Shown here: positions 3,001 through 35,022 of the stretch, piece after piece
How the letters are laid out: every line of letters starts with the position of its first letter
Position numbering within the stretch: the stretch's first letter is position 1
Assembly (NCBI RefSeq): GCF_964204645.1
Contig: NC_134025.1
Location: 29,232,001-29,296,000, forward strand
DNA: 64,000 bases
Source of the DNA: Tubulanus polymorphus
Lineage: Eukaryota > Nemertea > Palaeonemertea > Tubulaniformes > Tubulanidae
Direction of reading: 5' to 3'
Position numbers and translations under genes: made by a program
The notes under the pieces: generated by a model
Told to the model about the DNA's origin: nothing
The model's input: only the letters and a program-made list of their open reading frames with translations
Database searches by the model: none

Positions 3001-6000
3001 CAGTGATGGAAAACAATGCGATGGTAGGCACAGTTTTCATTGAATCATTCGTACACGAATGGAAAAGTTCTTTATGGGAAAATTGACGGTTACTTTCAGA
3101 TATCGACGAATGCAGCTCGGATTCGACCAATAACTGCGGGGATGGTGGAGTCTGCAGTAATACAGCGGGGTCGTATTATTGTACATGTAACGACGGTTAT
3201 GAGTTGAGCAGTGATGGAAAACAATGCGATGGTAGGCACAGTTTTCATTGAATCATTCGTACACGAATGGAAAAGTTCTTTATGGGAAAATTGACGGTTA
3301 CTTTCAGATATCGACGAATGCAGCTCGGATTCGACCAATAACTGCGGGGATGGTGGAGTCTGCAGTAATACAGCGGGGTCGTATCATTGTACATGTAACG
3401 ACGGTTATGAGTTGAGCAGTGATGGAAAACAATGCGATGGTAGGCACAGTTTTCATTGAACCATTCGTACACGAATGGAAAAGTTCTTTATGGGAAAATT
3501 GACGGTTACTTTCAGATATCGACGAATGCAGCTCGGATTCGACCAATAACTGCGGGGATGGTGGAGTCTGCAGTAATACAGCGGGGTCGTATTATTGTAC
3601 ATGTAACGACGGTTATGAGTTGAGCAGTGATGGAAAACAATGCGATGGTAGGCACAGTTTTCATTGAATCATTCGTACACGAATGGAAAAGTTCTTTATG
3701 GGAAAATTGACGGTTACTTTCAGATATCGACGAATGCAGCTCGGATTCGACCAATAACTGCGGGGATGGTGGAGTCTGCAGTAATACAGCGGGGTCGTAT
3801 TATTGTACATGTAACGACGGTTATGAGTTGAGCAGTGATGGAAAACAATGCGATGGTAGGCACAGTTTTCATTGAATCATTCGTACACGAATGGAAAAGT
3901 TCTTTATGGGAAAATTGACGGTTACTTTCAGATATCGACGAATGCAGCTCGGATTCGACCAATAACTGCGGGGATGGTGGAGTCTGCAGTAATACAGCGG
4001 GGTCGTATTATTGTACATGTAACGACGGTTATGAGTTGAGCAGTGATGGAAAACAATGCGATGGTAGGCACAGTTTTCATTGAATCATTCGTACACGAAT
4101 GGAAAAGTTCTTTATGGGAAAATTGACGGTTACTTTCAGATATCGACGAATGCAGCTCGGATTCGACCAATAACTGCGGGGACGGTGGAGTCTGCAGTAA
4201 TACAGCGGGGTCGTATTATTGTACATGTAACGACGGTTATGAGTTGAGCAGTGATGGAAAACAATGCGATGGTAGGCACAGTTTTCATTGAATCATTCGT
4301 ACACGAATGGAAAAGTTCTTTATGGGAAAATTGACGGTTACTTTCAGATATCGACGAATGCAGCTCGGATTCGACCAATAACTGCGGGGACGGTGGAGTC
4401 TGCAGTAATACAGCGGGGTCGTATTATTGTACATGTAACGACGGTTATGAGTTGAGCAGTGATGGAAAACAATGCGATGGTAGGCACAGTTTTCATTGAA
4501 TCATTCGTACACGAATGGAAAAGTTCTTTATGGGAAAATTGACGGTTACTTTCAGATATCGACGAATGCAGCTCGGATTCGACCAATAACTGCGGGGACG
4601 GTGGAGTCTGCAGTAATACAGCGGGGTCGTATTATTGTACATGTAACGACGGTTATGAGTTGAGCAGTGATGGAAAACAATGCGATGGTAGGCACGGTTT
4701 TCATTGAATCATTCGTACACGAATGGAAAAGTTCTTTATGGGAAAATTGACGGTTACTTTCAGATATCGACGAATGCAGCTCGGATTCGACCAATAACTG
4801 CGGGGACGGTGGAGTCTGCAGTAATACAGCGGGGTCGTATTATTGTACATGTAACGACGGTTATGAGTTGAGCAGTGATGGAAAACAATGCGATGGTAGG
4901 CACGGTTTTCATTGAATCATTCGTACACGAATGGAAAAGTTCTTTATGGGAAAATTGACGGTTACTTTCAGATATCGACGAATGCAGCTCGGATTCGACC
5001 AATAACTGCGGGGACGGTGGAGTCTGCAGTAATACAGCGGGGTCGTATTATTGTACATGTAACGACGGTTATGAGTTGAGCAGTGATGGAAAACAATGCG
5101 ATGGTAGGCACGGTTTTCATTGAATCATTCGTACACGAATGGAAAAGTTCTTTATGGGAAAATTGACGGTTACTTTCAGATATCGACGAATGCAGCTCGG
5201 ATTCGACCAATAACTGCGGGGACGGTGGAGTCTGCAGTAATACAGCTGGGTCGTATTATTGTACATGTAACGACGGTTATGAGTTGAGCAGTGATGGAAA
5301 ACAATGCGATGGTAGGCACAGTTTTCATTGAATCATTCGTACACGAATGGAAAAGTTCTTTATGGGAAAATTGACGGTTACTTTCAGATATCGACGAATG
5401 CAGCTCGGATTCGACCAATAACTGCGGGGACGGTGGAGTCTGCAGTAATACAGCGGGGTCGTATTATTGTACATGTAACGACGGTTATGAGTTGAGCAGT
5501 GATGGAAAACAATGCGATGGTAGGCACAGTTTTCATTGAATCATTCGTACACGAATGGAAAAGTTCTTTATGGGAAAATTGACGGTTACTTTCAGATATC
5601 GACGAATGCAGCTCGGATTCGACCAATAACTGCGGGGATGGTGGAGTCTGCAGTAATACAGCGGGGTCGTATCATTGTACATGTAACGACGGTTATGAGT
5701 TGAGCAGTGATGGAAAACAATGCGATGGTAGGCACAGTTCTCATTGAATCATTCGTACACGAATGGAAAAGTTCTTTATGGGAAAATTGACGGTTACTTT
5801 CAGATATCGACGAATGCAGCTCGGATTCGACCAATAACTGCGGGGATGGTGGAGTCTGCAGTAATACAGCGGGGTCGTATCATTGTACATGTAACGACGG
5901 TTATGAGTTGAGCAGTGATGGAAAACAATGCGATGGTAGGCACAGTTCTCATTGAATCATTCGTACACGAATGGAAAAGTTCTTTATGGGAAAATTGACG

Positions 6001-9000
6001 GTTACTTTCAGATATCGACGAATGCAGCTCGGATTCGACCAATAACTGCGGGGATGGTGGAGTCTGCAGTAATACAGCGGGGTCGTATCATTGTACATGT
6101 AACGACGGTTATGAGTTGAGCAGTGATGGAAAACAATGCGATGGTAGGCACAGTTTTCATTGAATCATTCGTACACGAATGGAAAAGTTCTTTATGGGAA
6201 AATTGACGGTTACTTTCAGATATCGACGAATGCAGCTCGGATTCGACCAATAACTGCGGGGATGGTGGAGTCTGCAGTAATACAGCGGGGTCGTATCATT
6301 GTACATGTAACGACGGTTATGAGTTGAGCAGTGATGGAAAACAATGCGATGGTAGGCACAGTTTTCATTGAATCATTCGTACACGAATGGAAAAGTTCTT
6401 TATGGGAAAATTGACGGTTACTTTCAGATATCGACGAATGCAGCTCGGATTCGACCAATAACTGCGGGGATGGTGGAGTATGCAGTAATACAGCGGGGTC
6501 GTATCATTGTACATGTAACGACGGTTATGAGTTGAGCAGTGATGGAAAACAATGCGATGGTAGGCACAGTTTTCATTGAATCATTCGTACACGAATGGAA
6601 AAGTTCTTTATGGGAAAATTGACGGTTACTTTCAGATATCGACGAATGCAGCTCGGATTCGACCAATAACTGCGGGGATGGTGGAGTCTGCAGTAATACA
6701 GCGGGGTCGTATTATTGTACATGTAACGACGGTTATGAGTTGAGCAGTGATGGAAAACAATGCGATGGTAGGCACAGTTTTCATTGAATCATTCGTACAC
6801 GAATGGAAAAGTTCTTTATGGGAAAATTGACGGTTACTTTCAGATATCGACGAATGCAGCTCGGATTCGACCAATAACTGCGGGGATGGTGGAGTCTGCA
6901 GTAATACAGCGGGGTCGTATTATTGTACATGTAACGACGGTTATGAGTTGAGCAGTGATGGAAAACAATGCGATGGTAGGCACAGTTTTCATTGAATCAT
7001 TCGTACACGAATGGAAAAGTTCTTTATGGGAAAATTGACGGTTACTTTCAGATATCGACGAATGCAGCTCGGATTCGACCAATAACTGCGGGGATGGTGG
7101 AGTCTGCAGTAATACAGCGGGGTCGTATTATTGTACATGTAACGACGGTTATGAGTTGAGCAGTGATGGAAAACAATGCGATGGTAGGCACAGTTTTCAT
7201 TGAATCATTCGTACACGAATGGAAAAGTTCTTTATGGGAAAATTGACGGTTACTTTCAGATATCGACGAATGCAGCTCGGATTCGACCAATAACTGCGGG
7301 GATGGTGGAGTCTGCAGTAATACAGCGGGGTCGTATTATTGTACATGTAACGACGGTTATGAGTTGAGCAGTGATGGAAAACAATGCGATGGTAGGCACA
7401 GTTTTCATTGAATCATTCGTACACGAATGGAAAAGTTCTTTATGGGAAAATTGACGGTTACTTTCAGATATCGACGAATGCAGCTCGGATTCGACCAATA
7501 ACTGCGGGGACGGTGGAGTCTGCAGTAATACAGCGGGGTCGTATTATTGTACATGTAACGACGGTTATGAGTTGAGCAGTGATGGAAAACAATGCGATGG
7601 TAGGCACAGTTTTCATTGAATCATTCGTACACGAATGGAAAAGTTCTTTATGGGAAAATTGACGGTTACTTTCAGATATCGACGAATGCAGCTCGGATTC
7701 GACCAATAACTGCGGGGACGGTGGAGTCTGCAGTAATACAGCGGGGTCGTATTATTGTACATGTAACGACGGTTATGAGTTGAGCAGTGATGGAAAACAA
7801 TGCGATGGTAGGCACAGTTTTCATTGAATCATTCGTACACGAATGGAAAAGTTCTTTATGGGAAAATTGACGGTTACTTTCAGATATCGACGAATGCAGC
7901 TCGGATTCGACCAATAACTGCGGGGACGGTGGAGTCTGCAGTAATACAGCGGGGTCGTATTATTGTACATGTAACGACGGTTATGAGTTGAGCAGTGATG
8001 GAAAACAATGCGATGGTAGGCACAGTTTTCATTGAATCATTCGTACACGAATGGAAACGTTCTTTATGGGAAAATTGACGGTTACTTTCAGATATCGACG
8101 AATGCAGCTCGGATTCGACCAATAACTGCGGGGACGGTGGAGTCTGCAGTAATACAGCGGGGTCGTATTATTGTACATGTAACGACGGTTATGAGTTGAG
8201 CAGTGATGGAAAACAATGCGATGGTAGGCACAGTTTTCATTGAATCATTCGTACACGAATGGAAACGTTCTTTATGGGAAAATTGACGGTTACTTTCAGA
8301 TATCGACGAATGCAGCTCGGATTCGACCAATAACTGCGGGGACGGTGGAGTCTGCAGTAATACAGCGGGGTCGTATTATTGTACATGTAACGACGGTTAT
8401 GAGTTGAGCAGTGATGGAAAACAATGCGATGGTAGGCACAGTTTTCATTGAATCATTCGTACACGAATGGAAAAGTTCTTTATGGGAAAATTGACGGTTA
8501 CTTTCAGATATCGACGAATGCAGCTCGGATTCGACCAATAACTGCGGGGATGGTGGAGTCTGCAGTAATACAGCGGGGTCGTATCATTGTACATGTAACG
8601 ACGGTTATGAGTTGAGCAGTGATGGAAAACAATGCGATGGTAGGCACAGTTCTCATTGAATCATTCGTACACGAATGGAAAAGTTCTTTATGGGAAAATT
8701 GACGGTTACTTTCAGATATCGACGAATGCAGCTCGGATTCGACCAATAACTGCGGGGATGGTGGAGTCTGCAGTAATACAGCGGGGTCGTATCATTGTAC
8801 ATGTAACGACGGTTATGAGTTGAGCAGTGATGGAAAACAATGCGATGGTAGGCACAGTTTTCATTGAATCATTCGTACACGAATGGAAAAGTTCTTTATG
8901 GGAAAATTGACGGTTACTTTCAGATATCGACGAATGCAGCTCGGATTCGACCAATAACTGCGGGGATGGTGGAGTCTGCAGTAATACAGCGGGGTCGTAT

Positions 9001-12000
9001 CATTGTACATGTAACGACGGTTATGAGTTGAGCAGTGATGGAAAACAATGCGATGGTAGGCACAGTTTTCATTGAATCATTCGTACACGAATGGAAAAGT
9101 TCTTTATGGGAAAATTGACGGTTACTTTCAGATATCGACGAATGCAGCTCGGATTCGACCAATAACTGCGGGGATGGTGGAGTCTGCAGTAATACAGCGG
9201 GGTCGTATTATTGTACATGTAACGACGGTTATGAGTTGAGCAGTGATGGAAAACAATGCGATGGTAGGCACAGTTTTCATTGAATCATTCGTACACGAAT
9301 GGAAAAGTTCTTTATGGGAAAATTGACGGTTACTTTCAGATATCGACGAATGCAGCTCGGATTCGACCAATAACTGCGGGGATGGTGGAGTCTGCAGTAA
9401 TACAGCGGGGTCGTATTATTGTACATGTAACGACGGTTATGAGTTGAGCAGTGATGGAAAACAATGCGATGGTAGGCACAGTTTTCATTGAATCATTCGT
9501 ACACGAATGGAAAAGTTCTTTATGGGAAAATTGACGGTTACTTTCAGATATCGACGAATGCAGCTCGGATTCGACCAATAACTGCGGGGATGGTGGAGTC
9601 TGCAGTAATACAGCGGGGTCGTATTATTGTACATGTAACGACGGTTATGAGTTGAGCAGTGATGGAAAACAATGCGATGGTAGGCACAGTTTTCATTGAA
9701 TCATTCGTACACGAATGGAAAAGTTCTTTATGGGAAAATTGACGGTTACTTTCAGATATCGACGAATGCAGCTCGGATTCGACCAATAACTGCGGGGACG
9801 GTGGAGTCTGCAGTAATACAGCGGGGTCGTATTATTGTACATGTAACGACGGTTATGAGTTGAGCAGTGATGGAAAACAATGCGATGGTAGGCACAGTTT
9901 TCATTGAACCATTCGTACACGAATGGAAAAGTTCTTTATGGGAAAATTGACGGTTACTTTCAGATATCGACGAATGCAGCTCGGATTCGACCAATAACTG
10001 CGGGGATGGTGGAGTCTGCAGTAATACAGCGGGGTCGTATTATTGTACATGTAACGACGGTTATGAGTTGAGCAGTGATGGAAAACAATGCGATGGTAGG
10101 CACAGTTTTCATTGAACCATTCGTACACGAATGGAAAAGTTCTTTATGGGAAAATTGACGGTTACTTTCAGATATCGACGAATGCAGCTCGGATTCGACC
10201 AATAACTGCGGGGATGGTGGAGTCTGCAGTAATACAGCGGGGTCGTATTATTGTACATGTAACGACGGTTATGAGTTGAGCAGTGATGGAAAACAATGCG
10301 ATGGTAGGCACAGTTTTCATTGAATCATTCGTACACGAATGGAAAAGTTCTTTATGGGAAAATTGACGGTTACTTTCAGATATCGACGAATGCAGCTCGG
10401 ATTCGACCAATAACTGCGGGGATGGTGGAGTCTGCAGTAATACAGCGGGGTCGTATTATTGTACATGTAACGACGGTTATGAGTTGAGCAGTGATGGAAA
10501 ACAATGCGATGGTAGGCACAGTTTTCATTGAATCATTCGTACACGAATGGAAAAGTTCTTTATGGGAAAATTGACGGTTACTTTCAGATATCGACGAATG
10601 CAGCTCGGATTCGACCAATAACTGCGGGGATGGTGGAGTCTGCAGTAATACAGCGGGGTCGTATTATTGTACATGTAACGACGGTTATGAGTTGAGCAGT
10701 GATGGAAAACAATGCGATGGTAGGCACAGTTTTCATTGAATCATTCGTACACGAATGGAAAAGTTCTTTATGGGAAAATTGACGGTTACTTTCAGATATC
10801 GACGAATGCAGCTCGGATTCGACCAATAACTGCGGGGATGGTGGAGTCTGCAGTAATACAGCGGGGTCGTATTATTGTACATGTAACGACGGTTATGAGT
10901 TGAGCAGTGATGGAAAACAATGCGATGGTAGGCACAGTTTTCATTGAATCATTCGTACACGAATGGAAAAGTTCTTTATGGGAAAATTGACGGTTACTTT
11001 CAGATATCGACGAATGCAGCTCGGATTCGACCAATAACTGCGGGGATGGTGGAGTCTGCAGTAATACAGCGGGGTCGTATTATTGTACATGTAACGACGG
11101 TTATGAGTTGAGCAGTGATGGAAAACAATGCGATGGTAGGCACAGTTTTCATTGAATCATTCGTACACGAATGGAAAAGTTCTTTATGGGAAAATTGACG
11201 GTTACTTTCAGATATCGACGAATGCAGCTCGGATTCGACCAATAACTGCGGGGATGGTGGAGTCTGCAGTAATACAGCGGGGTCGTATTATTGTACATGT
11301 AACGACGGTTATGAGTTGAGCAGTGATGGAAAACAATGCGATGGTAGGCACAGTTTTCATTGAATCATTCGTACACGAATGGAAAAGTTCTTTATGGGAA
11401 AATTGACGGTTACTTTCAGATATCGACGAATGCAGCTCGGATTCGACCAATAACTGCGGGGACGGTGGAGTCTGCAGTAATACAGCGGGGTCGTATTATT
11501 GTACATGTAACGACGGTTATGAGTTGAGCAGTGATGGAAAACAATGCGATGGTAGGCACAGTTTTCATTGAACCATTCGTACACGAATGGAAAAGTTCTT
11601 TATGGGAAAATTGACGGTTACTTTCAGATATCGACGAATGCAGCTCGGATTCGACCAATAACTGCGGGGATGGTGGAGTCTGCAGTAATACAGCGGGGTC
11701 GTATTATTGTACATGTAACGACGGTTATGAGTTGAGCAGTGATGGAAAACAATGCGATGGTAGGCACAGTTTTCATTGAACCAATTGTACACGAATGGAA
11801 AAGTTCTTTATGGGAAAATTGACGGTTACTTTCAGATATCGACGAATGCAGCTCGGATTCGACCAATAACTGCGGGGATGGTGGAGTCTGCAGTAATACA
11901 GCGGGGTCGTATTATTGTACATGTAACGACGGTTATGAGTTGAGCAGTGATGGAAAACAATGCGATGGTAGGCACAGTTTTCATTGAATCATTCGTACAC

Positions 12001-15000
12001 GAATGGAAAAGTTCTTTATGGGAAAATTGACGGTTACTTTCAGATATCGACGAATGCAGCTCGGATTCGACCAATAACTGCGGGGATGGTGGAGTCTGCA
12101 GTAATACAGCGGGGTCGTATTATTGTACATGTAACGACGGTTATGAGTTGAGCAGTGATGGAAAACAATGCGATGGTAGGCACAGTTTTCATTGAATCAT
12201 TCGTACACGAATGGAAAAGTTCTTTATGGGAAAATTGACGGTTACTTTCAGATATCGACGAATGCAGCTCGGATTCGACCAATAACTGCGGGGATGGTGG
12301 AGTCTGCAGTAATACAGCGGGGTCGTATTATTGTACATGTAACGACGGTTATGAGTTGAGCAGTGATGGAAAACAATGCGATGGTAGGCACAGTTTTCAT
12401 TGAATCATTCGTACACGAATGGAAAAGTTCTTTATGGGAAAATTGACGGTTACTTTCAGATATCGACGAATGCAGCTCGGATTCGACCAATAACTGCGGG
12501 GATGGTGGAGTCTGCAGTAATACAGCGGGGTCGTATTATTGTACATGTAACGACGGTTATGAGTTGAGCAGTGATGGAAAACAATGCGATGGTAGGCACA
12601 GTTTTCATTGAATCATTCGTACACGAATGGAAAAGTTCTTTATGGGAAAATTGACGGTTACTTTCAGATATCGACGAATGCAGCTCGGATTCGACCAATA
12701 ACTGCGGGGATGGTGGAGTCTGCAGTAATACAGCGGGGTCGTATTATTGTACATGTAACGACGGTTATGAGTTGAGCAGTGATGGAAAACAATGCGATGG
12801 TAGGCACAGTTTTCATTGAATCATTCGTACACGAATGGAAAAGTTCTTTATGGGAAAATTGACGGTTACTTTCAGATATCGACGAATGCAGCTCGGATTC
12901 GACCAATAACTGCGGGGATGGTGGAGTCTGCAGTAATACAGCGGGGTCGTATTATTGTACATGTAACGACGGTTATGAGTTGAGCAGGGATGGAAAACAA
13001 TGCGATGGTAGGCACAGTTTTCATTGAATCATTCGTACACGAATGGAAAAGTTCTTTATGGGAAAATTGACGGTTACTTTCAGATATCGACGAATGCAGC
13101 TCGGATTCGACCAATAACTGCGGGGATGGTGGAGTCTGCAGTAATACAGCGGGGTCGTATTATTGTACATGTAACGACGGTTATGAGTTGAGCAGTGATG
13201 GAAAACAATGCGATGGTAGGCACAGTTTTCATTGAATCATTCGTACACGAATGGAAAAGTTCTTTATGGGAAAATTGACGGTTACTTTCAGATATCAACG
13301 AATGCAGCTCGGATTCGACCAATAACTGCGGGGATGGTGGAGTCTGCAGTAATACAGCGGGGTCGTATTATTGTACATGTAACGACGGTTATGAGTTGAG
13401 CAGTGATGGAAAACAATGCGATGGTAGGCACAGTTTTCATTGAATCATTCGTACACGAATGGAAAAGTTCTTTATGAGAAAATTGACGGTTACTTTCAGA
13501 TATCGACGAATGCAGCTCGGATTCGACCAATAACTGCGGGGATGGTGGAGTCTGCAGTAATACAGCGGGGTCGTATTATTGTACATGTAACGACGGTTAT
13601 GAGTTGAGCAGTGATGGAAAACAATGCGATGGTAGGCACAGTTTTCATTGAATAATTCGTACACGAATGGAAAAGTTCTTTATGGGAAAATTGACGGTTA
13701 CTTTCAGATATCGACGAATGCAGCTCGGATTCGACCAATAACTGCGGGGATGGTGGAGTCTGCAGTAATACAGCGGGGTCGTATTATTGTACATGTAACG
13801 ACGGTTATGAGTTGAGCAGTGATGGAAAACAATGCGATGGTAGGCACAGTTTTCATTGAATCATTCGTACACGAATGGAAAAGTTCTTTATGGGAAAATT
13901 GACGGTTACTTTCAGATATCGACGAATGCAGCTCGGATTCGACCAATAACTGCGGGGATGGTGGAGTCTGCAGTAATACAGCGGGGTCGTATTATTGTAC
14001 ATGTAACGACGGTTATGAGTTGAACAGTGATGGAAAACAATGCGATGGTAGGCACAGTTTTCATTGAATCATTCGTACACGAATGGAAAAGTTCTTTATG
14101 GGAAAATTGACGGTTACTTTCAGATATCGACGAATGCAGCTCGGATTCGACCAATAACTGCGGGGATGGTGGAGTCTGCAGTAATACAGCGGGGTCGTAT
14201 TATTGTACATGTAACGACGGTTATGAGTTGAGCAGTGATGGAAAACAATGCGATGGTAGGCACAGTTTTCATTGAATCATTCGTACACGAATGGAAAAGT
14301 TCTTTATGGGAAAATTGACGGTTACTTTCAGATATCGACGAATGCAGCTCGGATTCGACCAATAACTGCGGGGATGGTGGAGTCTGCAGTAATACAGCGG
14401 GGTCGTATTATTGTACATGCAACGACGGTTATGGGTTGAGCAGTGATGGAAAACAATGCGATGGTAGGCAGAGTTTTCATTGAATCAGTCGTACACGAAT
14501 GGAAAAGTTCTTTATGGGAAAATTGACGGTTACTTTCAGATATCGACGAATGCAGCTCGGATTCGACCAATAACTGCGGGAATGGTGGAGTCTGCAGTAA
14601 TACAGCGGGGTCGTATTATTGTACATGTAACGACGGTTATGAGTTGAGCAGTGATGGAAAACAATGCGATGGTAGGCACAGTTTTCATTGAATCATTCGT
14701 ACACGAATGGAAAAGTTCTTTATGGGAAAATTGACGGTTACTTTCAGATATCGACGAATGCAGCTCGGATTCGACCAATAACTGCGGGGATGGTGGAGTC
14801 TGCAGTAATACAGCGGGGTCGTATTATTGTACATGTAACGACGGTTATGAGTTGAGCAGTGATGGAAAACAATGCGATGGTAGGCACAGTTTTCATTGAA
14901 TCATTCGTACACGAATGGAAAAGTTCTTTATGGGAAAATTGACGGTTACTTTCAGATATCGACGAATGCAGCTCGGATTCGACCAATAACTGCGGGGATG

Positions 15001-18000
15001 GTGGAGTCTGCAGTAATACAGCGGGGTCGTATTATTGTACATGTAACGACGGTTATGAGTTGAGCAGTGATGGAAAACAATGTGATGGTAGGCACAGTTT
15101 TCATTGAATCATTCGTACACGAATGGAAAAGTTCTTTATGGGAAAATTGACGGTTACTTTCAGATATCGACGAATGCAGCTCGGATTCGACCAATAACTG
15201 CGGGGATGGTGGAGTCTGCAGTAATACAGCGGGGTCGTATTATTGTACATGTAACGACGGTTATGAGTTGAGCGGTGATGGAAAACAATGCGATGGTAGG
15301 CACAGTTTTCATTGAATCATTCGTACACGAATGGAAAAGTTCTTTATGGGAAAATTGACGGTTACTTTCAGATATCGACGAATGCAGCTCGGATTCGACC
15401 AATAACTGCGGGGATGGTGGAGTCTGCAGTAATACAGCGGGGTCGTATTATTGTACATGTAACGACGGTTATGAGTTGAGCGGTGATGGAAAACAATGCG
15501 ATGGTAGGCACAGTTTTCATTGAATCATTCGTACACGAATGGAAAAGTTCTTTATGGGAAAATTGACGGTTACTTTCAGATATCGACGAATGCAGCTCGG
15601 ATTCGACCAATAACTGCGGGGATGGTGGAGTCTGCAGTAATACAGCGGGGTCGTATCATTGTACATGTAACGACGGTTATGAGTTGAGCAGTGATGGAAA
15701 ACAATGCGATGGTAGGCACAGTTTTCATTGAATCATTCGTACACGAATGGAAAAGTTCTTAATGGGAAAATTGACGGTTACTTTCAGATATCGACGAATG
15801 CAGCTCGGATTCGACCAATAACTGCGGGGATGGTGGAGTCTGCAGTAATACAGCGGGGTCGTATCATTGTACATGTAACGACGGTTATGAGTTGAGCAGT
15901 GATGGAAAACAATGCGATGGTAGGCACAGTTTTCATTGAATCATTCGTACACGAATGGAAAAGTTCTTTATGGGAAAATTGACGGTTACTTTCAGATATC
16001 GACGAATGCAGCTCGGATTCGACCAATAACTGCGGGGATGGTGGAGTCTGCAGTAATACAGCGGGGTCGTATTATTGTACATGTAACGACGGTTATGAGT
16101 TGAGCAGTGATGGAAAACAATGCGATGGTAGGCACAGTTTTCATTGAATCATTCGTACACGAATGGAAAAGTTCTTTATGGGAAAATTGACGGTTACTTT
16201 CAGATATCGACGAATGCAGCTCGGATTCGACCAATAACTGCGGGGATGGTGGAGTCTGCAGTAATACAGCGGGGTCGTATTATTGTACATGTAACGACGG
16301 TTATGAGTTGAGCAGTGATGGAAAACAATGCGATGGTAGGCACAGTTTTCATTGAATCATTCGTACACGAATGGAAAAGTTCTTTATGGGAAAATTGACG
16401 GTTACTTTCAGATATCGACGAATGCAGCTCGGATTCGACCAATAACTGCGGGGATGGTGGAGTCTGCAGTAATACAGCGGGGTCGTATTATTGTACATGT
16501 AACGACGGTTATGAGTTGAGCAGTGATGGAAAACAATGCGATGGTAGGCACAGTTTTCATTGAATCATTCGTACACGAATGGAAAAGTTCTTTATGGGAA
16601 AATTGACGGTTACTTTCAGATATCGACGAATGCAGCTCGGATTCGACCAATAACTGCGGGGATGGTGGAGTCTGCAGTAATACAGCGGGGTCGTATTATT
16701 GTACATGTAACGACGGTTATGAGTTGAGCAGTGATGGAAAACAATGCGATGGTAGGCACAGTTTTCATTGAATCATTCGTACACGAATGGAAAAGTTCTT
16801 TATGGGAAAATTGACGGTTACTTTCAGATATCGACGAATGCAGCTCGGATTCGACCAATAACTGCGGGGATGGTGGAGTCTGCAGTAATACAGCGGGGTC
16901 GTATTATTGTACATGTAACGACGGTTATGAGTTGAGCAGTGATGGAAAACAATGCGATGGTAGGCACAGTTTTCATTGAATCATTCGTACACGAATGGAA
17001 AAGTTCTTTATGGGAAAATTGACGGTTACTTTCAGATATCGACGAATGCAGCTCGGATTCGACCAATAACTGCGGGGATGGTGGAGTCTGCAGTAACACA
17101 GCGGGGTCGTATTATTGTACATGTAACGACGGTTATGAGTTGAGCAGTGATGGAAAACAATGCGATGGTAGGCACAGTTTTCATTGAATCATTCGTACAC
17201 GAATGGAAAAGTTCTTTATGGGAAAATTGACGGTTACTTTCAGATATCGACGAATGCAGCTCGGATTCGACCAATAACTGCGGGGATGGTGGAGTCTGCA
17301 GTAATATAGCGGGGTCGTATTATTGTACATGTAACGACGGTTATGAGTTGAGCAGTGATGGAAAACAATGCGATGGTAGGCACAGTTTTCATTGAATCAT
17401 TCGTACACGAATGGAAAAGTTCTTTATGGGAAAATTGACGGTTACTTTCAGATATCGACGAATGCAGCTCGGATTCGACCAATAACTGCGGGGATGGTGG
17501 AGTCTGCAGTAATACAGCGGGGTCGTATTATTGTACATGTAACGACGGTTATGAGTTGAGCAGTGATGGAAAACAATGCGATGGTAGGCACAGTTTTCAT
17601 TGAATCATTCGTACACGAATGGAAAAGTTCTTTATGGGAAAATTGACGGTTACTTTCAGATATCGACGAATGCAGCTCGGATTCGACCAATAACTGCGGG
17701 GATGGTGGAGTCTGCAGTAATACAGCGGGGTCGTATTATTGTACATGTAACGACGGTTATGAGTTGAGCAGTGATGGAAAACAATGCGATGGTAGGCACA
17801 GTTTTCATTGAATCATTCGTACACGAATGGAAAAGTTCTTTATGGGAAAATTGACGGTTACTTTCAGATATCGACGAATGCAGCTCGGATTCGACCAATA
17901 ACTGCGGGGATGGTGGAGTCTGCAGTAACACAGCGGGGTCGTATTATTGTACATGTAACGACGGTTATGAGTTGAGCAGTGATGGAAAACAATGCGATGG

Positions 18001-19042
18001 TAGGCACAGTTTTCATTGAATCATTCGTACACGAATGGAAAAGTTCTTTATGGGAAAATTGACGGTTACTTTCAGATATCGACGAATGCAGCTCGGATTC
18101 GACCAATAACTGCGGGGATGGTGGAGTCTGCAGTAATACAGCGGGGTCGTATTATTGTACATGTAACGACGGTTATGAGTTGAGCAGTGATGGAAAACAA
18201 TGCGATGGTAGGCACAGTTTTCATTGAATCATTCGTACACGAATGGAAAAGTTCTTTATGGGAAAATTGACGGTTACTTTCAGATATCGACGAATGCAGC
18301 TCGGATTCGACCAATAACTGCGGGGATGGTGGAGTCTGCAGTAATACAGCGGGGTCGTATTATTGTACATGTAACGACGGTTATGAGTTGAGCAGTGATG
18401 GAAAACAATGCGATGGTAGGCACAGTTTTCATTGAATCATTCGTACACGAATGGAAAAGTTCTTTATGGGAAAATTGACGGTTACTTTCAGATATCGACG
18501 AATGCAGCTCGGATTCGACCAATAACTGCGGGGATGGTGGAGTCTGCAGTAATACAGCGGGGTCGTATTATTGTACATGTAACGACGGTTATGAGTTGAG
18601 CAGTGATGGAAAACAATGCGATGGTAGGCACAGTTTTCATTGAATCATTCGTACACGAATGGAAAAGTTCTTTATGGGAAAATTGACGGTTATTTTCAGA
18701 TATCGACGAATGCAGCTCGGATTCGACCAATAACTGCGGGGATGGTGGAGTCTGCAGTAATACAGCGGGGTCGTATTATTGTACATGTAACGACGGTTAT
18801 GAGTTGAGCAGTGATGGAAAACAATGCGATGGTAGGCAGCACAGTTTTCATTGAATAATTCGTACACGAATGGAAAAGTTCTTTATGGGAATATTGACGG
18901 TTACTTTCAGATATCAACGAATGCAGCTCAGATTCGACCAATAACTGCGGGGATGGTGGAGTCTGCAGTAATACAGCGGGGTCGTATTATTGTACATGTA
19001 ACGACGGTTATGACTTGAGCAGTGATCGAAAACAATGCGATG
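1..19042 (+). repeat. Tandem array of 92 EGF exon-plus-intron units, 208 bp each
   Basis: The unit is a 132-nt exon (first complete copy 188..319) and a 76-nt intron (320..395), repeated with exact 208-bp spacing. One partial and 91 complete exons are present; the last is 18911..19042, offset by 3 nt because of a GCA insertion near 18837. The exon encodes one 44-residue calcium-binding EGF domain: it begins D-I-D-E-C, has six cysteines, and carries the N-T-A-G-S-Y-Y-C core typical of cbEGF, including the Asn and aromatic residues used in calcium binding. The acceptor is TTACTTTCAG and the donor is G|GTAGGC. Intron and exon are almost equally conserved between copies, which points to recent unequal exchange rather than selection on protein alone. 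The open frames on the opposite strand in every unit are an antisense by-product. Confidence 0.97.
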
Positions 19043-21665
19043 GTTAGTGAATTCTCCTTTTGAAATACATCGTTTTATCCTCTCCCCTACTGAACCGTAT
19101 TTATTTGAGTACAGTCGACCTCGCTTTAATCGTCACTTTAGGGACCGACTCAAAGATGACGATTCATCCGATTGACGAATTAAGCGCATATGACTTTCTG
19201 AGTTATATTACCAGTAGTTTATTTCTGGAACACACGCAATCATTGGATTTATCTGATGGGTGTTTTGTGAGGTGAAAATAAAAATTGGGGCATTTAGTTT
19301 TGATTGCGTTATGCGATACTTCGTTACTTCGGCCACGCGTTGAATTTAAAGCCACTCTGACGAAGGCTACTGTCAATAATTTTGTTATTCTCATGGACGG
19401 TTTAGTATAGTATAGTTAGTATAATATAGTTTCTTTTTAATGAATTTCAAAATTTTTCGCTTTTATTTGCAAGTTCTTAAAAAACTTTTTGGCGCCATTT
19501 TGTTGACCACTCTACTGAGGCTCCAGTACTATGAACGGGCACGTGCAATGAGGAAAGTATATTATGTATGTTGCAATTCTTTGTGTATCGTTGCGTGCTA
19601 CGAACCTAATCGGGACTGTGTCGAGACAGTTTAATAAACAGTGCAACTTACGTTTTATATTCATTTGCGCATCGACGGTTTGACCCATGTTATTTTACGT
19701 ATAAGCAACACTAACGGAACGGCAAAATAGTGACGACTAAAGCAAATAACGACTTGCGAATGACGAATTAGCCACAGAAACATCAACGAAATAACGAACT
19801 GTTTATCCGTACTCTGATTAAGCCAGAATGATAAATTACACGCTGACGATTAAAGCGTGGTCAACTGTATTATAGTTCATCGACCCAGTCTTGCGTAGTT
19901 TTATTTCATACCTTTCTGCCATATTGGGATTTTACCTGCATCTTGTTAAAATAAGAAACATCGTATTGCTTTTATATATTCAGTTTGCACTAATCTTACA
20001 TCTTGAAATCACTATAATTACCCAATGATGGAATGATTCATAAACCTTTCATAAATATAGGATTGTTCTCCTTAGGTAGCACGTTCAATGAATCATAATT
20101 ATATTTTTGAAAATAGACTTTGACGAATGCTCTGTGGAAAATGTCAGTAAATATTGTGTCAATGGAAATTGCATTAATACGGATGGAGGTTATACTTGTG
20201 AATGTGATTCTGGTTGGGAAGGCGATTCTTGCGATATGGAAAATGCAATTCCTACTACAACGGCGGATCTAGCAGCCACATTGAAATACGAAGGTAATAT
20301 TGGCTAGAATGCTGCTACTCCATATTGTCTTAATTTTGATACGCAATGTATTTCTCTTGACCTTCGGTTTTTTATATTGAGTAGATTTAGATGTATTTGA
20401 TGCTTGTAAGAATGCTGACTGTGGGTTTGGAACCTGCCAACCTTTAATTGGAGAGGGATACACGTGTCATTGTCAGACTGGATACACAGGCGATAACTGT
20501 ACCACCCCAGGTAGCATTGTTTTATGTTCACAGTTCGCAGTGACTGGATTATGTTTTTTCATGCGATAATGATATCAACTTTTAATCTATCGTCAGACAC
20601 TTGCAGTCTTAGTGAGTGTAATGGTGGGAAATGTGCTATTAGCAATGATGGGGAAACATACTGTTTGACTTGCCCTGATGGTTTTCTTGGAGCTAGCTGT
20701 GATGAAATAGATGGTACTATGTTATCCAATCATATATATTATTGATTTTTAAGGATTGTGCATGCATTTTTCTTGATATTTTTTCCTTCATCCGTGTCCA
20801 TTTTAAGGTGAGGTAGGTTTTTGGTATGAGTGGTCCAATTGGTCCGCTTGTGACACACCGTGCGGAGTTGTAGGAAGCAGATCCCGCCATAGAAAGTGTA
20901 AGAAAAGGAAATCTAAGTGTAAATTATCAGCAAGAGAAGAAAGGCCATGCAATGTTGAAGAATGTGAAGCTTGTAAGTACATTCAAAACTGGTTTGATGT
21001 CAATTCATTTGATTTTGTCACCCGGATTTGTGATATTTGATAATCGTAATTGAAATATAAATCTAAAATGATAAATATGATGTTTTGATTATAATGCTCG
21101 TTTCGTTTCTTAAAGCGGATGGCCAAACTAATCCAAAACCATTCGACCAATACGGTGAGTTAAATATTTATTTTCATTATGTTCTTTCCTTTCTAAGGTA
21201 AATTCAATAAATCATCATATGTAGAGATATGAATGCATAGTAAAGTATTTGAATTGTTGTACGTTTTCAGATGACTTCGAAGGTACCATTGGTTGGTGGC
21301 ATCCTGATATTATAAAAAATGGTTTGAAAATGAGATCATCAATTACGTTGCGAATAAAAACTGCTGTTGTATTACCTAATAAGCAGTCACCATGTAACGG
21401 TAAGGTAGTTGGTATTAATTATAATGCCAAGAAGAGTAAATTTTCATTTTACTTCGCTGTCTGGAGATCATTCGAACAAGGTGAAAGCTATGCACTGGCC
21501 GCTGCCCGATCTATTACGTCATCTGGACGAGGGGCGCAAACTCAGATGTTCACCGACCCGATCGCTGTTTCAAAAGGAGATTCACTTGGATTTCTGCCGG
21601 CTAAAAAGGCGTCCAAACTTGAGGTTGAGGCAATAGCGTGGTACGCTTTTTGTTGCAATGCGTAA
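1..21665 (+). CDS. Giant multi-EGF / TSP1 extracellular protein, 5' partial
   Basis: This is the 3' part of a fibrillin- or fibropellin-like extracellular gene; the window starts inside an exon. There are 92 near-identical calcium-binding EGF exons (next entry), then exons 20117..20293, 20385..20510 and 20597..20713, each a diverged six-cysteine EGF domain, then 20808..20972, a thrombospondin type 1 repeat (WSNWSACDTPCG), 21116..21154, a short linker, and 21271..21665, a terminal domain ending in FCCNA and a TAA stop. Every exon junction is phase 1, so exons can be gained or lost in frame, and the reading frame is open through all of them. The visible part would encode about 4,250 residues. 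No membrane segment is seen near the C-terminus, so I infer a secreted matrix or adhesion protein. The signal peptide and 5' exons lie outside the window. The EGF and TSP1 assignments are firm; the terminal domain is not recognised with certainty. Confidence 0.9.
19043..20116 (+). other. Long intron between the EGF array and the diverged 3' EGF exons
   Basis: The donor GTTAGT follows the last array exon and the acceptor AAATAG precedes the next EGF exon. At 1,074 nt it is about 14 times longer than the 76-nt introns of the array. I see no gene, tRNA or clear repeat in it. Confidence 0.75.
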
Positions 21666-30179: not shown

Positions 30180-30185
30180 TTTATT
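30180..30185 (-). terminator. Poly(A) signal of the SDHAF1/TAMM41 unit
   Basis: AATAAA on the minus strand 35 nt beyond the TAMM41 stop codon; it would serve the last cistron of the pair. Confidence 0.55.
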
Positions 30186-30220: not shown

Positions 30221-31237
30221 TCACAGCTTAACAAATTGACTTTTGAGCATCTTTTTAAGTTTATCTTTACTGTATTTAATAGATTTGACGAAGCCGGCTG
30301 TGAAGATTCCCTTAAAACTTTGAGAAATACTTGAACTTTTAACTATATCAACCACGCATCTATGAACTATAACATCGCAATCGGGATCATTACAAACGCT
30401 TCTGATAACCTCCTCCATATCTCTGTGGCGACCGTCTCTATTTCTGTAATCGACGATATTTTCAATTAGATTTTTCGGTAATAAATTTAGATGATGATAT
30501 CGCGTTGTATTCGTCAGACACTGATCGAGCGTTCCCGATCGTTTGTTCCACGATACGTGGCTCTCTTTATCGATGATATGACCGTAAAGCTTACGAAACC
30601 GCTCGATGTTCGGCGTGACGATGTTTCGCACTTTGTTTTTGTCTTCGCCGATCGTCATGCGAAAATCACCGGCATAAGACAAACCGCTGATACATAAATA
30701 CAGCTGCAACTCGGTGAATTGCTCGGGTAATATCAACAGAGCTGCGTGTAGTGCGTTCTGAAGGTTCGTCCCTAAAGCCGCTTGCAACGTATCGGTTTTA
30801 TCGTATTCGAGTATCAGAACTGGTTTATGCATTCGACCGCTGACGTAAAGCGTGTCCCAATCCAGTAGATCAGTAATCAGTCGTCTCGTGCTAATTACTC
30901 CGTATTTTATCAGTCGTTCCTCGCACGGAACTAAAGTATTGAAATAGATACCGGCGCCGTAACGATCCTGCAGAGCGGCGATATTCGCACCGCCGAGACG
31001 AGTCATCAACGACGAGTAATGACTCGCGTTCGCCGTCATATTTTTCTTATGCCATAAAACTGGGTCATCGACCACGAATATAAAATCTAGCATATTCGTA
31101 CGCGGATCTTTATGGCCCTGCTGTTGAAAGACACCGGAGCCGTAAGCGAACGCGAGTCTGCATCGCTGCTTCGGAAAGTGACTCAACACTTTGCTATAAA
31201 CGCTACTATTTACCAACGCTTTAGTAACGGCAGCCAT
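30221..31237 (-). CDS. TAMM41: TAMM41, mitochondrial phosphatidate cytidylyltransferase
   Basis: TAMM41 (yeast Tam41) makes CDP-diacylglycerol from phosphatidic acid and CTP at the matrix face of the inner mitochondrial membrane, the first step of cardiolipin synthesis. The 338-residue product is near the usual family length. The start MAAVTKALVNSS is the only ATG in the leading part of the frame. It contains the nucleotidyltransferase signature (AFAYGSGVFQQ, then MLDFIFVVDDP with its acidic residue), the WHKKN...HYS segment and AGIYFNTLVPCE. The whole gene is a single exon, unlike the split vertebrate gene. It starts 13 nt after the SDHAF1 stop on the same strand, with no room for a promoter or intron, so the two are probably on one transcript. 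Confidence 0.93.
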   Translation of the reverse strand: MAAVTKALVNSSVYSKVLSHFPKQRCRLAFAYGSGVFQQQGHKDPRTNMLDFIFVVDDPVLWHKKNMTANASHYSSLMTRLGGANIAALQDRYGAGIYFNTLVPCEERLIKYGVISTRRLITDLLDWDTLYVSGRMHKPVLILEYDKTDTLQAALGTNLQNALHAALLILPEQFTELQLYLCISGLSYAGDFRMTIGEDKNKVRNIVTPNIERFRKLYGHIIDKESHVSWNKRSGTLDQCLTNTTRYHHLNLLPKNLIENIVDYRNRDGRHRDMEEVIRSVCNDPDCDVIVHRCVVDIVKSSSISQSFKGIFTAGFVKSIKYSKDKLKKMLKSQFVKL

Positions 31238-31250
31238 TATGAAACGGTTG

Positions 31251-31502
31251 TTATCGTGTGTTGTTATCTTTCTCGAACACCCCGACACGTTCGATGTTAC
31301 TCGCTTTAATCGTCTTCAGTTGATTTTGTCCGCGTCGTATGAGATATTCGATGCGCATGATATCCTTCCTCGGAATGACGGCATTTCTACGGAACTCGGC
31401 CGACACGTGCTCTCGCAGACCCGGTTTATCGCGTCCTATTCGTAGAAATTGACGATATAAACTCAGTACTGTTAGCTGTAATTTACTGTGTCTTACCGCC
31501 AT
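31251..31502 (-). CDS. SDHAF1: SDHAF1, succinate dehydrogenase assembly factor 1
   Basis: Small LYR-motif protein of the mitochondrial matrix that helps deliver iron-sulfur clusters to the SdhB subunit of complex II. The 83-residue frame begins MAVRHSKLQLTVLSLYRQFL and contains the L-Y-R tripeptide, an AEFRRNA segment and the IEYLIRRGQNQL helix typical of SDHAF1. The chosen ATG (31502..31500) is the first in the frame; residues further upstream would need a non-ATG start. No intron is seen. The C-terminus is shorter than the human protein but includes the conserved LYR core. It is the upstream cistron of the TAMM41 pair. Confidence 0.92.
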   Translation of the reverse strand: MAVRHSKLQLTVLSLYRQFLRIGRDKPGLREHVSAEFRRNAVIPRKDIMRIEYLIRRGQNQLKTIKASNIERVGVFEKDNNTR

Positions 31503-32248
31503 CGATTGTGCGAGCGCTACGTGCTGAAGCACAGTCCGATTACTACTGCTTTACCTGTTGGTTTTCTTCATTACCTTTTATTAAAATACTTTGAGCCGCG
31601 ATGACATCCAGTTTAAAGCTACACACAACCCTGTCAGACACTGGACTGACGACACCGACCGAGCTGATCTGAGTGAGTGAATATACCTGAATTTTGACTG
31701 AGAAAATAAAAAAAAATGTATTCAAATTGAAATGCAAAATTCATTTCTAAATCATTAAGAATTAAAATTTTGTTCTAGACTTGTTACATAAGATGGGCAC
31801 CTTTTATTACTTTGTAAGCAGCTAGGAAGGGAAGTGATGCATGAACATGCAATACTTTTCTACGAAGAAACTCGCCCAACGACCTTCAGAATTGGACAGG
31901 CGACCAGTCTAAAGTATTACGGAATAGATCTTTAGACGTTGAACCGGACATGGAATATTGGAACTAGTGTGTAGTGTGACGGGTAATTTTACACAAATGC
32001 AATGCATAACATTTTCACAAGGTAAGGGTGCATACGAATACAATTCACCATGCGGTAATATTAAGGTAAGACTTCTCGTACACAACGGTGGCAGTGAACT
32101 AAACGGATCTTTGCGTTCAAAAGTCCAGGTCCGCATTTTACCGTACATTTGCGTGTGATAGGTGGCGCTTTGCTCGATTAGACTTCCTGGTTTTATATTT
32201 TTCTGTCAATAGTTTATAATATCATCAGTAGATGCAGCTGGATTCCAG
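31503..32248. other. Divergent spacer between SDHAF1 (-) and the GPR180-like gene (+)
   Basis: About 750 nt that should contain both 5' UTRs and promoters. No TATA-like or other firm element could be assigned; short open frames here have no recognisable content. Confidence 0.5.
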
Positions 32249-35022
32249 ATGTGTGGGTTTTATATTTTCAGCGCACTGCTGTTATTGACAGCTGACGATG
32301 GTTTATCACTGCATCTATCAGGAACCTGGCATAGTTCCAACTTCTTTCTATTTCTGGCTAAATTCGGATTTCAAAAAACTGACCTCAACAATAAAGTCAA
32401 CACTCAAGGCTATATTTACGGAAATATAACATTGAATTCCGCTTCTGAGAAAAATATTCCAGCAGATTTAACTCTAGTTGTTGTGGATAGTGAATATTTT
32501 ATCGAGTTTTTTAGTAATAGCACGGCGACCCCTCGAACGAAAGCGTGCGCTTCCATGTTTAAAAAAATAGATCTCATCGCGTGGGACGTTTACTGTAAAC
32601 CGAATAATCCGGAGGATTTTCTAAGGCGGATACCGTGTCCGAAAGGAGAACTCTGTATCGATGAAGACTCTCCGAGTCGAGTGGTCGGTGGCTATCAGTT
32701 CACGTACAGCGTACAAGACACCAATCAACCCAGGTAGGAATTACTGTCAGTGCTTTTCAATGGAAATTCTACTTTGAAGTGTAAAGTAGAACTCACTGGA
32801 TATGGATCGCCTGCGACCGGAAAATTGTGCTGAATTAAACGACGAAATACAAATTATGTGTGCTTTCAGTTGAATAACCTAGAGTGGAGTGGAATTTTAG
32901 TCTGAAATAAGTGAATATCCGAATTTAGCGAGTTATACTGTATTTTGCTGTTTCCCTCAAGTATCCTATAGTACCTAGCCTCTAGAATAGTAGGATACTA
33001 AGGCTGTTGATTGAGTAACAAAGGAGTCATTCATATGCATATATTCTAGTATCTAACATGTCCCTTATACAAAGTTTTAAGGGCATAACATCTTCTATTC
33101 AGGTTAGCATCAGAAAGGCTTTATACCAATGTGGTTTGTAAAAATATCCCATGATGAAACTAAATCTAGGCGACGGAGACTAAAGAATAAGAATTCGTCA
33201 CTTCTCTCTACATTTATAGCCTACATGGATGGATTAGAATTAACCACTTCAAGACAAATGTCACTTTATGACCTGAAGCTCTGCATGCATGTACTGGTTA
33301 AAAATGCATACATGAATATCAGCCATATTGCGTGCATGATACTTAATGTTTGATTTATTTCTGAAGAAATCAATGCGAACTTGTTTTAATGAATTGAATT
33401 TTTATCGTTTGTAGATTTTGGTATATCAGTATCGTGTCATGTTATAGAAATACAAGTTGTAATTGGACGACGGACGTCAAAAATCACGTTTCGATAAACT
33501 ACGATATTTGGTTAGTGAACGGCAATCCGTACACGAAGCACTTCAATCCGTTTGAACATCAGTTTTCGTTCGATCACCACAATATCGTCGAGATTTACGC
33601 CGTGTTCGGTATCGTTTATACGGTGCTTGTACCGGTTCAGTATTACGCGTTGAAGAAGCTGAAGCACGCGTTAACGCGGTTATTAACGATCAGCGTCGTA
33701 ATGGAATACGCGGGAATCCTGCTAAATTTCATTCACTATTTCGTGTTCGCGTTCAACGGCGTCGGTTTCGAAGTCGGGAAGATTTTAGGAAACTTTATCG
33801 ACACATGCGCGCAGTGTTTACTGACGATGCTGCTGCTATTGATCGCTAAAGGATGGATGATCACTAAAATCGAATTCGAAAGAAAGAAATTGTTTTTCTG
33901 TTTATGGGGATTATTTCTGGCGCTGAATATAGCCTTCTTCATTTGGAATATGGTAAGTGTTGTCATTTGCGGTGTAACAGAACCCCACCCATACTTTATG
34001 AAAGAACATTTATACTCTGTGTATCTAAACAGTTCTATGATAAAAAAGCTCTCATAAAATTCTGCATTTCAGATTGAAGTTGATATCATTTCGACGACTG
34101 GTAAATGGGAAACGTGGCCTGGTTTGTGTATATTAGTCGCGAGGTTCACTGTCATAGTTTGGTTCTTACACGAATTACGCACGAGTTTCAGTTGTGAAGT
34201 CAATAAAGATAAGATCGATTTTTACCTGCATTTCGGAGCTGGTTTCCTAGTCTGGTTTATTTACCTGCCGATAATAGCTATCATCGGTATGAAGATTTCA
34301 CCGCTTTGGAGAATTAAAACGGTTCTTAGTAAGTAGAATCAAACAGCATTTAGGCCGTTTTTGCTCGGAGTAGGGTTTTTTTGCAAGAACGAAATATTTG
34401 GGTGAAGGGGGAAAATAAAAAGTGAAATCACAGGTTTTTTAAGATGGTAGGGAACAGGAGAAGATAGAAATACAGTTTTTTAGAGTACGATATAATGCAC
34501 ATAAAATCTTTGAAGGACTACGAAAAAAAATCAGAATTGAATTCAAATCTACAACAATTAGCGCAAGATCAAATATTGTCGTATGATTGAGTAGAATTCG
34601 AGACACCCCAAGTGATAAAAAACACCTCTAAACTATCATGTCATTCTGGAGAATCGTTTTTCTGGGATTGGTTTTTTATCGATCTGATATTTTGCAGGTG
34701 TCACGTATGCAGCTGATTTTCTCGCCTTTCTGGTGCTCGTCCATATATTCTGGCCGTCAAGAACGACTTCATATTTCAAATTCAATATGAATGGTACGAC
34801 TGTTCCGAAAACGACAGTTCAACTCACCGATTTAGGTCCCAATCGGTTTAAACGTAAGCAACGAAAAATCCTAATCGGTTTTAGCTGAGCTTTTTACAAC
34901 CATGAATTCCGTATAGATTCGATTTCGTTCATTTTGTAGAACTGTTAGCCGAGGAATCGAGTGAATCTGGTGAAAGTGAAATAGATTTTCAGCTAACAAG
35001 TGCTGCTGTAAAACCGAGCTGA
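32249..35022 (+). CDS. GPR180-like seven-transmembrane receptor
   Basis: Member of the GPR180/TMEM145 (intimal thickness-related receptor) family, predicted membrane protein. Exons 32249..32733, 33415..33952, 34073..34328, 34698..34853 and 34940..35022 join in phase to 505 residues ending TGA. A hydrophobic leader (FYIFSALLLL) is followed by a beta-rich lumenal domain of about 170 residues starting LHLSGTW. Exon 2 begins FWYISIVSCYR and carries the first four helices; it includes LNFIHYFVF, a NGVGFEVGKILGNFIDT segment and LLLLIAKGWMIT, matching the family core. The remaining helices lie in exons 3 and 4, with an acidic cytoplasmic tail (LLAEESSESGESE). GPR180 resembles it more than TMEM145 at NPFEHQF and the GWMIT helix. 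The ligand is not known from sequence. A short upstream 5' exon cannot be excluded because a TTTTCAG acceptor lies just inside the first exon. Confidence 0.85.

Follow-up and report, generated by a model that had tools for sequence, protein, structure and literature searches.

Closely spaced SDHAF1 and TAMM41 reading frames as a probable compact two-gene transcription unit in Tubulanus polymorphus

The window analysed here, a stretch of 64,000 nucleotides (C1:29232001-29296000) of the T. polymorphus genome, carries on its minus strand two intact conserved open reading frames (ORFs), SDHAF1 and TAMM41, separated by a 13-nt spacer, which is the layout of a bicistronic gene. The two ORFs probably form a compact two-gene transcription unit, for which the promoter, the shared mRNA and the mode of TAMM41 translation are predicted from the sequence. 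A bicistronic unit, as proposed in the original prediction, is the best reading of this region because of the spacing, the one terminal poly(A) signal and the presence in the same genome of two known gene pairs with the same layout. SDHAF1–TAMM41 is probably a new pair in an established architecture known for a few other animal gene pairs.

The two genes and their surroundings

The order on the minus strand is SDHAF1 (31502 to 31251), the spacer (31250 to 31238) and TAMM41 (31237 to 30221), and the ORFs are in different frames, with an offset of 31502−31237 = 265, which is 1 modulo 3. The strand, the 13-nt gap, the SDHAF1 stop, the TAMM41 ATG and the difference in frames all proved to be exactly as originally described, and so did the lack of a further upstream ATG for TAMM41, the frame of which is open back to 31315 without another ATG. 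Each gene has a single place in the assembly (268 Mb, 77 contigs). The 13-nt gap between two conserved single-copy genes on one strand is unusual locally, because the other recognisable genes of the window have introns and the nearest recognised neighbour begins about 0.75 kb away. The origin of the two intronless genes as a retrocopy of a spliced mRNA was considered and rejected, as no second, intron-bearing copy was found in the assembly and no poly(A) tract was seen behind TAMM41; an old retroposition, the parent of which has since been lost, is a possible origin.

The identification of ORF 2 as TAMM41 was upheld. In the profile search it matched PF09139 (Tam41_Mmp37) with 369.9 bits over ORF residues 15-329, covering profile positions 2-322 of 322, as expected for a near full-length member of the family, and the solved structure of mitochondrial phosphatidate cytidylyltransferase (6ig2) matched it with an E-value of 2.2e-51. 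A scan of prokaryote and viral contig collections revealed no relatives of TAMM41. For ORF 1, the part of the original claim that stands on a profile match is the LYR family assignment, which is a Pfam result (PF05347, Complex1_LYR, 43.6 bits, above the cut-off). The protein read from 31502 to 31251 on the minus strand (MAVRHSKLQLTVLSLYRQFLR…RIEYLIRRG…) contains the LYR motif in SLYRQFLR and, in IEYLIRRG, the RRG segment that corresponds to human R55–G57, as expected for SDHAF1. In comparison with the sequence that we take to be human SDHAF1, 39 of 73 residues of the 83-aa ORF are identical (53%), and the residues aligned with R55 and G57 of this presumed reference are kept. The specific assignment of ORF 1 to SDHAF1, which rests on the same assumed reference, is a strong lead. 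R55 and G57 of human SDHAF1 are positions mutated in disease (PMC7700678). No tight same-strand partner was found beside other LYR genes at the two assembly loci examined (L012 and L014).

Several other features were recorded in the window. Positions 1-19044 are occupied by 91.5 tandem copies (99% identity) of a 208-bp unit, and this array continues past the left edge. The unit can be read as an EGF-like exon (NNCGDGGVCSNTAGSYYCTCNDGYELSSDGKQCD) with a GT donor behind it, and the array may have arisen by amplification of an exon plus intron or may be a feature of the assembly. Cadherin exons are located at 38-48 kb, and an open frame of 324 aa at 56990-57964 on the minus strand has a SOCS box at its C-terminus and matches ankyrin weakly. 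Elsewhere in the genome, 5S rRNA genes form tandem arrays on contigs 3 and 11, and in one array (L003) the spacers are roughly 430 nt long and contain a repeated GATCGCCACCTCAGCGAGGCATCC element. A troponin match in the assembly indicates a bilaterian animal; neither COX1 nor, with a DNA probe, 18S was found there.

Table 1. Coordinates of the features discussed in the text (window positions, unless an assembly locus is given; a slash precedes the start codon)
Feature	Location	Strand	Basis
GPR180/TMEM145-like gene, exons; PF10192 in second long ORF	32249-34057	+	profile match
Putative SDHAF1 5' leader; acceptor-like site 31698, donor-like sites 31574 and 31554, short uORFs from 31607 and 31571	31503..31697	-	sequence
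SDHAF1 start, context CAATCG/ATGG (TCGATGG), T at -3, weak	31500..31505	-	sequence
SDHAF1 ORF (ORF 1), 83 aa, intronless, stop TAA; LYR-family complex II assembly factor	31251..31502	-	PF05347, comparison with presumed human SDHAF1
Out-of-frame 22-codon ORF within SDHAF1, ATG at 31384, context GTAGAA/ATGC	31316..31384	-	sequence
In-frame internal SDHAF1 ATG at 31358, context GATATC/ATGC, 35 codons to SDHAF1 stop	31251..31358	-	sequence
13-nt spacer CAACCGTTTCATA, no AG	31238..31250	-	sequence
TAMM41 start, context TTCATA/ATGG (ATAATGG), A at -3 and G at +4, strong	31235..31240	-	sequence
TAMM41 ORF (ORF 2), 338 aa, intronless; mitochondrial phosphatidate cytidylyltransferase	30221..31237	-	PF09139, PDB 6ig2
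AATAAA poly(A) signal, beginning 36 nt past TAMM41 stop	30180..30185	-	sequence
SMIM4–C12orf73 (sloth1–sloth2) tandem	L015, G000:C11:12722595-12725735	-	PF15114, PF14990
MOCS2A then MOCS2B, classical bicistronic order	L016, G000:C5:17628093-17631254	-	PF02597, MoaE

A shared transcript and its alternatives

The single poly(A) signal after TAMM41 that had been claimed originally is present (AATAAA at 30185), but ATTAAA was also found at 30280, within the final part of the TAMM41 ORF, and at 31310, inside SDHAF1. The latter is too far upstream of the SDHAF1 stop to serve this gene, because cleavage, taken to occur at the usual 10-30 nt downstream of the hexamer, would precede the stop codon. From 31250 to 30281, i.e. 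from the SDHAF1 stop to the last 60 nt of TAMM41, there is no AATAAA or ATTAAA; the rare variants ACTAAA (31225) and CATAAA (31114) occur in this interval, and either may act as a signal serving SDHAF1 alone. With no common hexamer before 30281, the SDHAF1 mRNA should continue through TAMM41 and be at least structurally bicistronic, unless a rare hexamer such as ACTAAA is used, and co-transcription of the two genes is likely.

The GPR180/TMEM145-like gene is arranged head-to-head with SDHAF1, with about 0.75 kb between the start codons. One promoter located in this interval, upstream of SDHAF1, would drive the unit, and possibly it is a divergent promoter common to both directions. The single mRNA would carry both ORFs and end at the AATAAA after TAMM41. 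A very strong acceptor-like site at 31698 on the minus strand (ATTTTTTTTTATTTTCTCAG, 99.9th percentile), which precedes the SDHAF1 start codon by about 195 nt, together with strong donor-like sites at 31574, 31554 and 31496 (98-99th percentile), suggests a 5' UTR intron upstream of SDHAF1, so that the leader itself may be spliced. Splice scores were obtained with a generic animal matrix, not trained on this genome, and acceptors are expressed as percentiles among all AGs in the window; as a check, the likely GPR180/TMEM145 donor at 32734 reaches the 99.5th percentile and candidate acceptors near the next exon the 90th-93rd.

Separate overlapping transcripts, although unlikely on the whole, are the main alternative. 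Under this explanation TAMM41 mRNAs would start within the SDHAF1 ORF or slightly ahead of it and have a short leader with few upstream AUGs, and SDHAF1 mRNAs would run to the common poly(A) site, with SDHAF1 alone being translated from them. The original statement that there is no room for a promoter holds for the 13-nt spacer, but not for the 252-nt SDHAF1 ORF, which is ample for a core promoter and contains one initiator match (31378) and one CACGTG (31409). Both are single, weak matches, and one Inr-like hexamer per 250 nt, where arithmetic gives an expectation of about 0.25, is nothing unusual; the ORF has no TATA box, and the CpG ratio of 1.7-1.9 marks no promoter, because it is raised over the whole coding stretch and over other exons. 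Since 114 of the 159 dicistronic pairs described in Drosophila (PMC4528330) yield monocistronic transcripts of one gene or both as well, a mixture of bicistronic and monocistronic forms would be a realistic outcome.

Processing of a longer precursor into separate mRNAs is hard to reconcile with the splice sites. An operon resolved by a spliced leader, in which one pre-mRNA would be cut and the leader joined to TAMM41, is very improbable: in tunicate operons of this type the genes can indeed be very closely spaced (median gap 1 bp in Ciona; PMC7986045), but no usable 3' splice acceptor was found directly upstream of TAMM41. Besides the lack of AG in the spacer, acceptor scores range from the 3rd to the 45th percentile for the AGs at 31314, 31304, 31300, 31272 and 31268, and the nearest two, 31272 (32nd) and 31268 (45th), are located in the last SDHAF1 codons without a pyrimidine tract, so that their use would remove the SDHAF1 stop. 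Inspection of one 5S array by eye revealed no unit resembling a spliced leader, which is weak evidence in the same direction. Alternative cis-splicing, which would join a common 5' exon to an acceptor close to the TAMM41 start and so drop SDHAF1 from the TAMM41 mRNAs, could make use of the three strong donor-like sites, but it has a slimmer chance still, as the interval from 31365 to 31237 contains no good acceptor and the best two in the SDHAF1 ORF, 31436 (91st percentile) and 31387 (84th), open into short ORFs that stop ahead of TAMM41. An assembly artefact joining the two genes is almost certainly not the explanation, because the sequence is continuous on a 32-Mb contig, without a gap, and both genes are intact and single-copy.

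Access to the TAMM41 start codon

On a bicistronic mRNA, SDHAF1 would be translated from the first main AUG. The start contexts, weak for ORF 1 (TCG/ATGG) and strong for ORF 2 (ATA/ATGG), are those expected for leaky scanning, and some ribosomes might bypass the weak SDHAF1 AUG and scan directly to TAMM41. An alternative route could be reinitiation after the 22-codon out-of-frame ORF; this is feasible, since that ORF terminates at 31316, 78 nt ahead of the TAMM41 ATG. The in-frame AUG at 31358 would divert some scanning ribosomes and compete with the TAMM41 start. It is counted against the shared mRNA, beside the finding stated in the title of Wall et al. 2005 (cited in PMC4528330) that second-cistron translation in two Drosophila dicistrons depends on there being no in-frame AUGs in the first cistron.

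Depletion of AUGs before TAMM41, a possible signature of leaky scanning, was rejected: SDHAF1 contains one out-of-frame AUG versus 1.34 expected from synonymous resampling (P ~0.55), plus one in-frame AUG. There was also no sign of a structured IRES, as the RNA across ORF 1 folds no more than its shuffles (z −0.35). Among the translation routes named in the original prediction, leaky scanning and reinitiation fit the start contexts, but the locus shows none of the AUG depletion that dedicated leaky scanning would lead one to expect; trans-splicing is disfavoured, since no usable acceptor was found.

Should both proteins come from one mRNA, translation would be the level at which complex II assembly and cardiolipin synthesis are jointly set. 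A further-reaching version is doubtful, namely that SDHAF1–TAMM41 is an obligate and conserved bicistronic mRNA in some animal lineage, which keeps a complex II assembly factor and the mitochondrial CDP-diacylglycerol synthase of the cardiolipin route in a fixed ratio, with SDHAF1 serving as a coding upstream ORF that throttles TAMM41.

Comparison with known bicistronic genes

Two animal gene pairs known as bicistronic were searched for in the same assembly as controls. SMIM4 (PF15114, contig 11) ends 19 nt before the ATG of C12orf73 (PF14990, 57.9 bits) after removal of a 288-nt intron, which was inferred from GT/AG and frame. The first AUG of SMIM4 (context TGCAGA/ATGG) is not in a weak context, so a weak ORF 1 context is no rule in this genome. 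MOCS2A was recognised by the C-terminus of PF02597 (…PPISGG-stop), and candidate start codons of MOCS2B are located 97 or 127 nt further on; behind the second of these, the MoaE stretch scores 20.5 bits, just below the cut-off, but further MoaE exons pass. By this comparison, the layout of SDHAF1–TAMM41 is one already used in this genome, so that the bicistronic reading gains credibility and is at the same time less of a surprise. With both SMIM4–C12orf73 and MOCS2A–MOCS2B in tandem, this genome lends itself to studying the persistence of bicistrons in animals and access to ORF 2.

No description of the SDHAF1–TAMM41 pair was found in open-licence PMC literature, and TAMM41 together with the term bicistronic returned nothing there. 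In the same collection, the one paper naming both genes appears to deal with a protist mitochondrial proteome, and SDHAF1 occurs with bicistronic in articles on Drosophila, which appear to treat iron–sulfur and molybdenum cofactor enzymes and models of mitochondrial neurodegeneration.

The dicistrons of Drosophila are processed mRNAs with two neighbouring ORFs, often unrelated in sequence, as proposed for SDHAF1–TAMM41; they are backed by cDNA and RNA-Seq, whereas SDHAF1–TAMM41 is predicted from sequence. The symbols which we take to be those of the fly TAMM41 and SDHAF1 genes are absent from the main text of the Drosophila dicistron paper.

In green algae, bicistrons are translated by leaky scanning and typically have a weak start context at ORF 1, which is short and precedes a long ORF 2; in A. 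protothecoides the median ORF 1 is 291 nt and the median spacer 40 nt (PMC11892635). SDHAF1–TAMM41 resembles them in its short ORF 1, short spacer and weak ORF 1 start context, but differs in that the algal bicistrons are depleted of AUGs before ORF 2. MOCS2A–MOCS2B is similar in having a short ORF 1, a longer ORF 2 and one functional theme; however, its products are two subunits of one enzyme, and in this genome MOCS2 has introns and a gap of about 97-127 nt, unlike SDHAF1–TAMM41.

Drosophila sloth1–sloth2 has a 5-nt spacer and is reported to be translated by leaky scanning, with a weak and then a strong start context (PMC9681215). Like SDHAF1–TAMM41, it encodes two mitochondrial proteins in different frames, with a spacer of a few nucleotides and no obvious IRES, and the weak-then-strong Kozak pattern of the Drosophila pair is also found at SDHAF1–TAMM41. 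If the bicistronic reading is true, the small set of known animal mitochondrial bicistrons would gain a pair of unrelated proteins: the sloth proteins are distant paralogues acting in one complex (III), whereas SDHAF1 and TAMM41 are unrelated and ORF 2 encodes a full-size enzyme.
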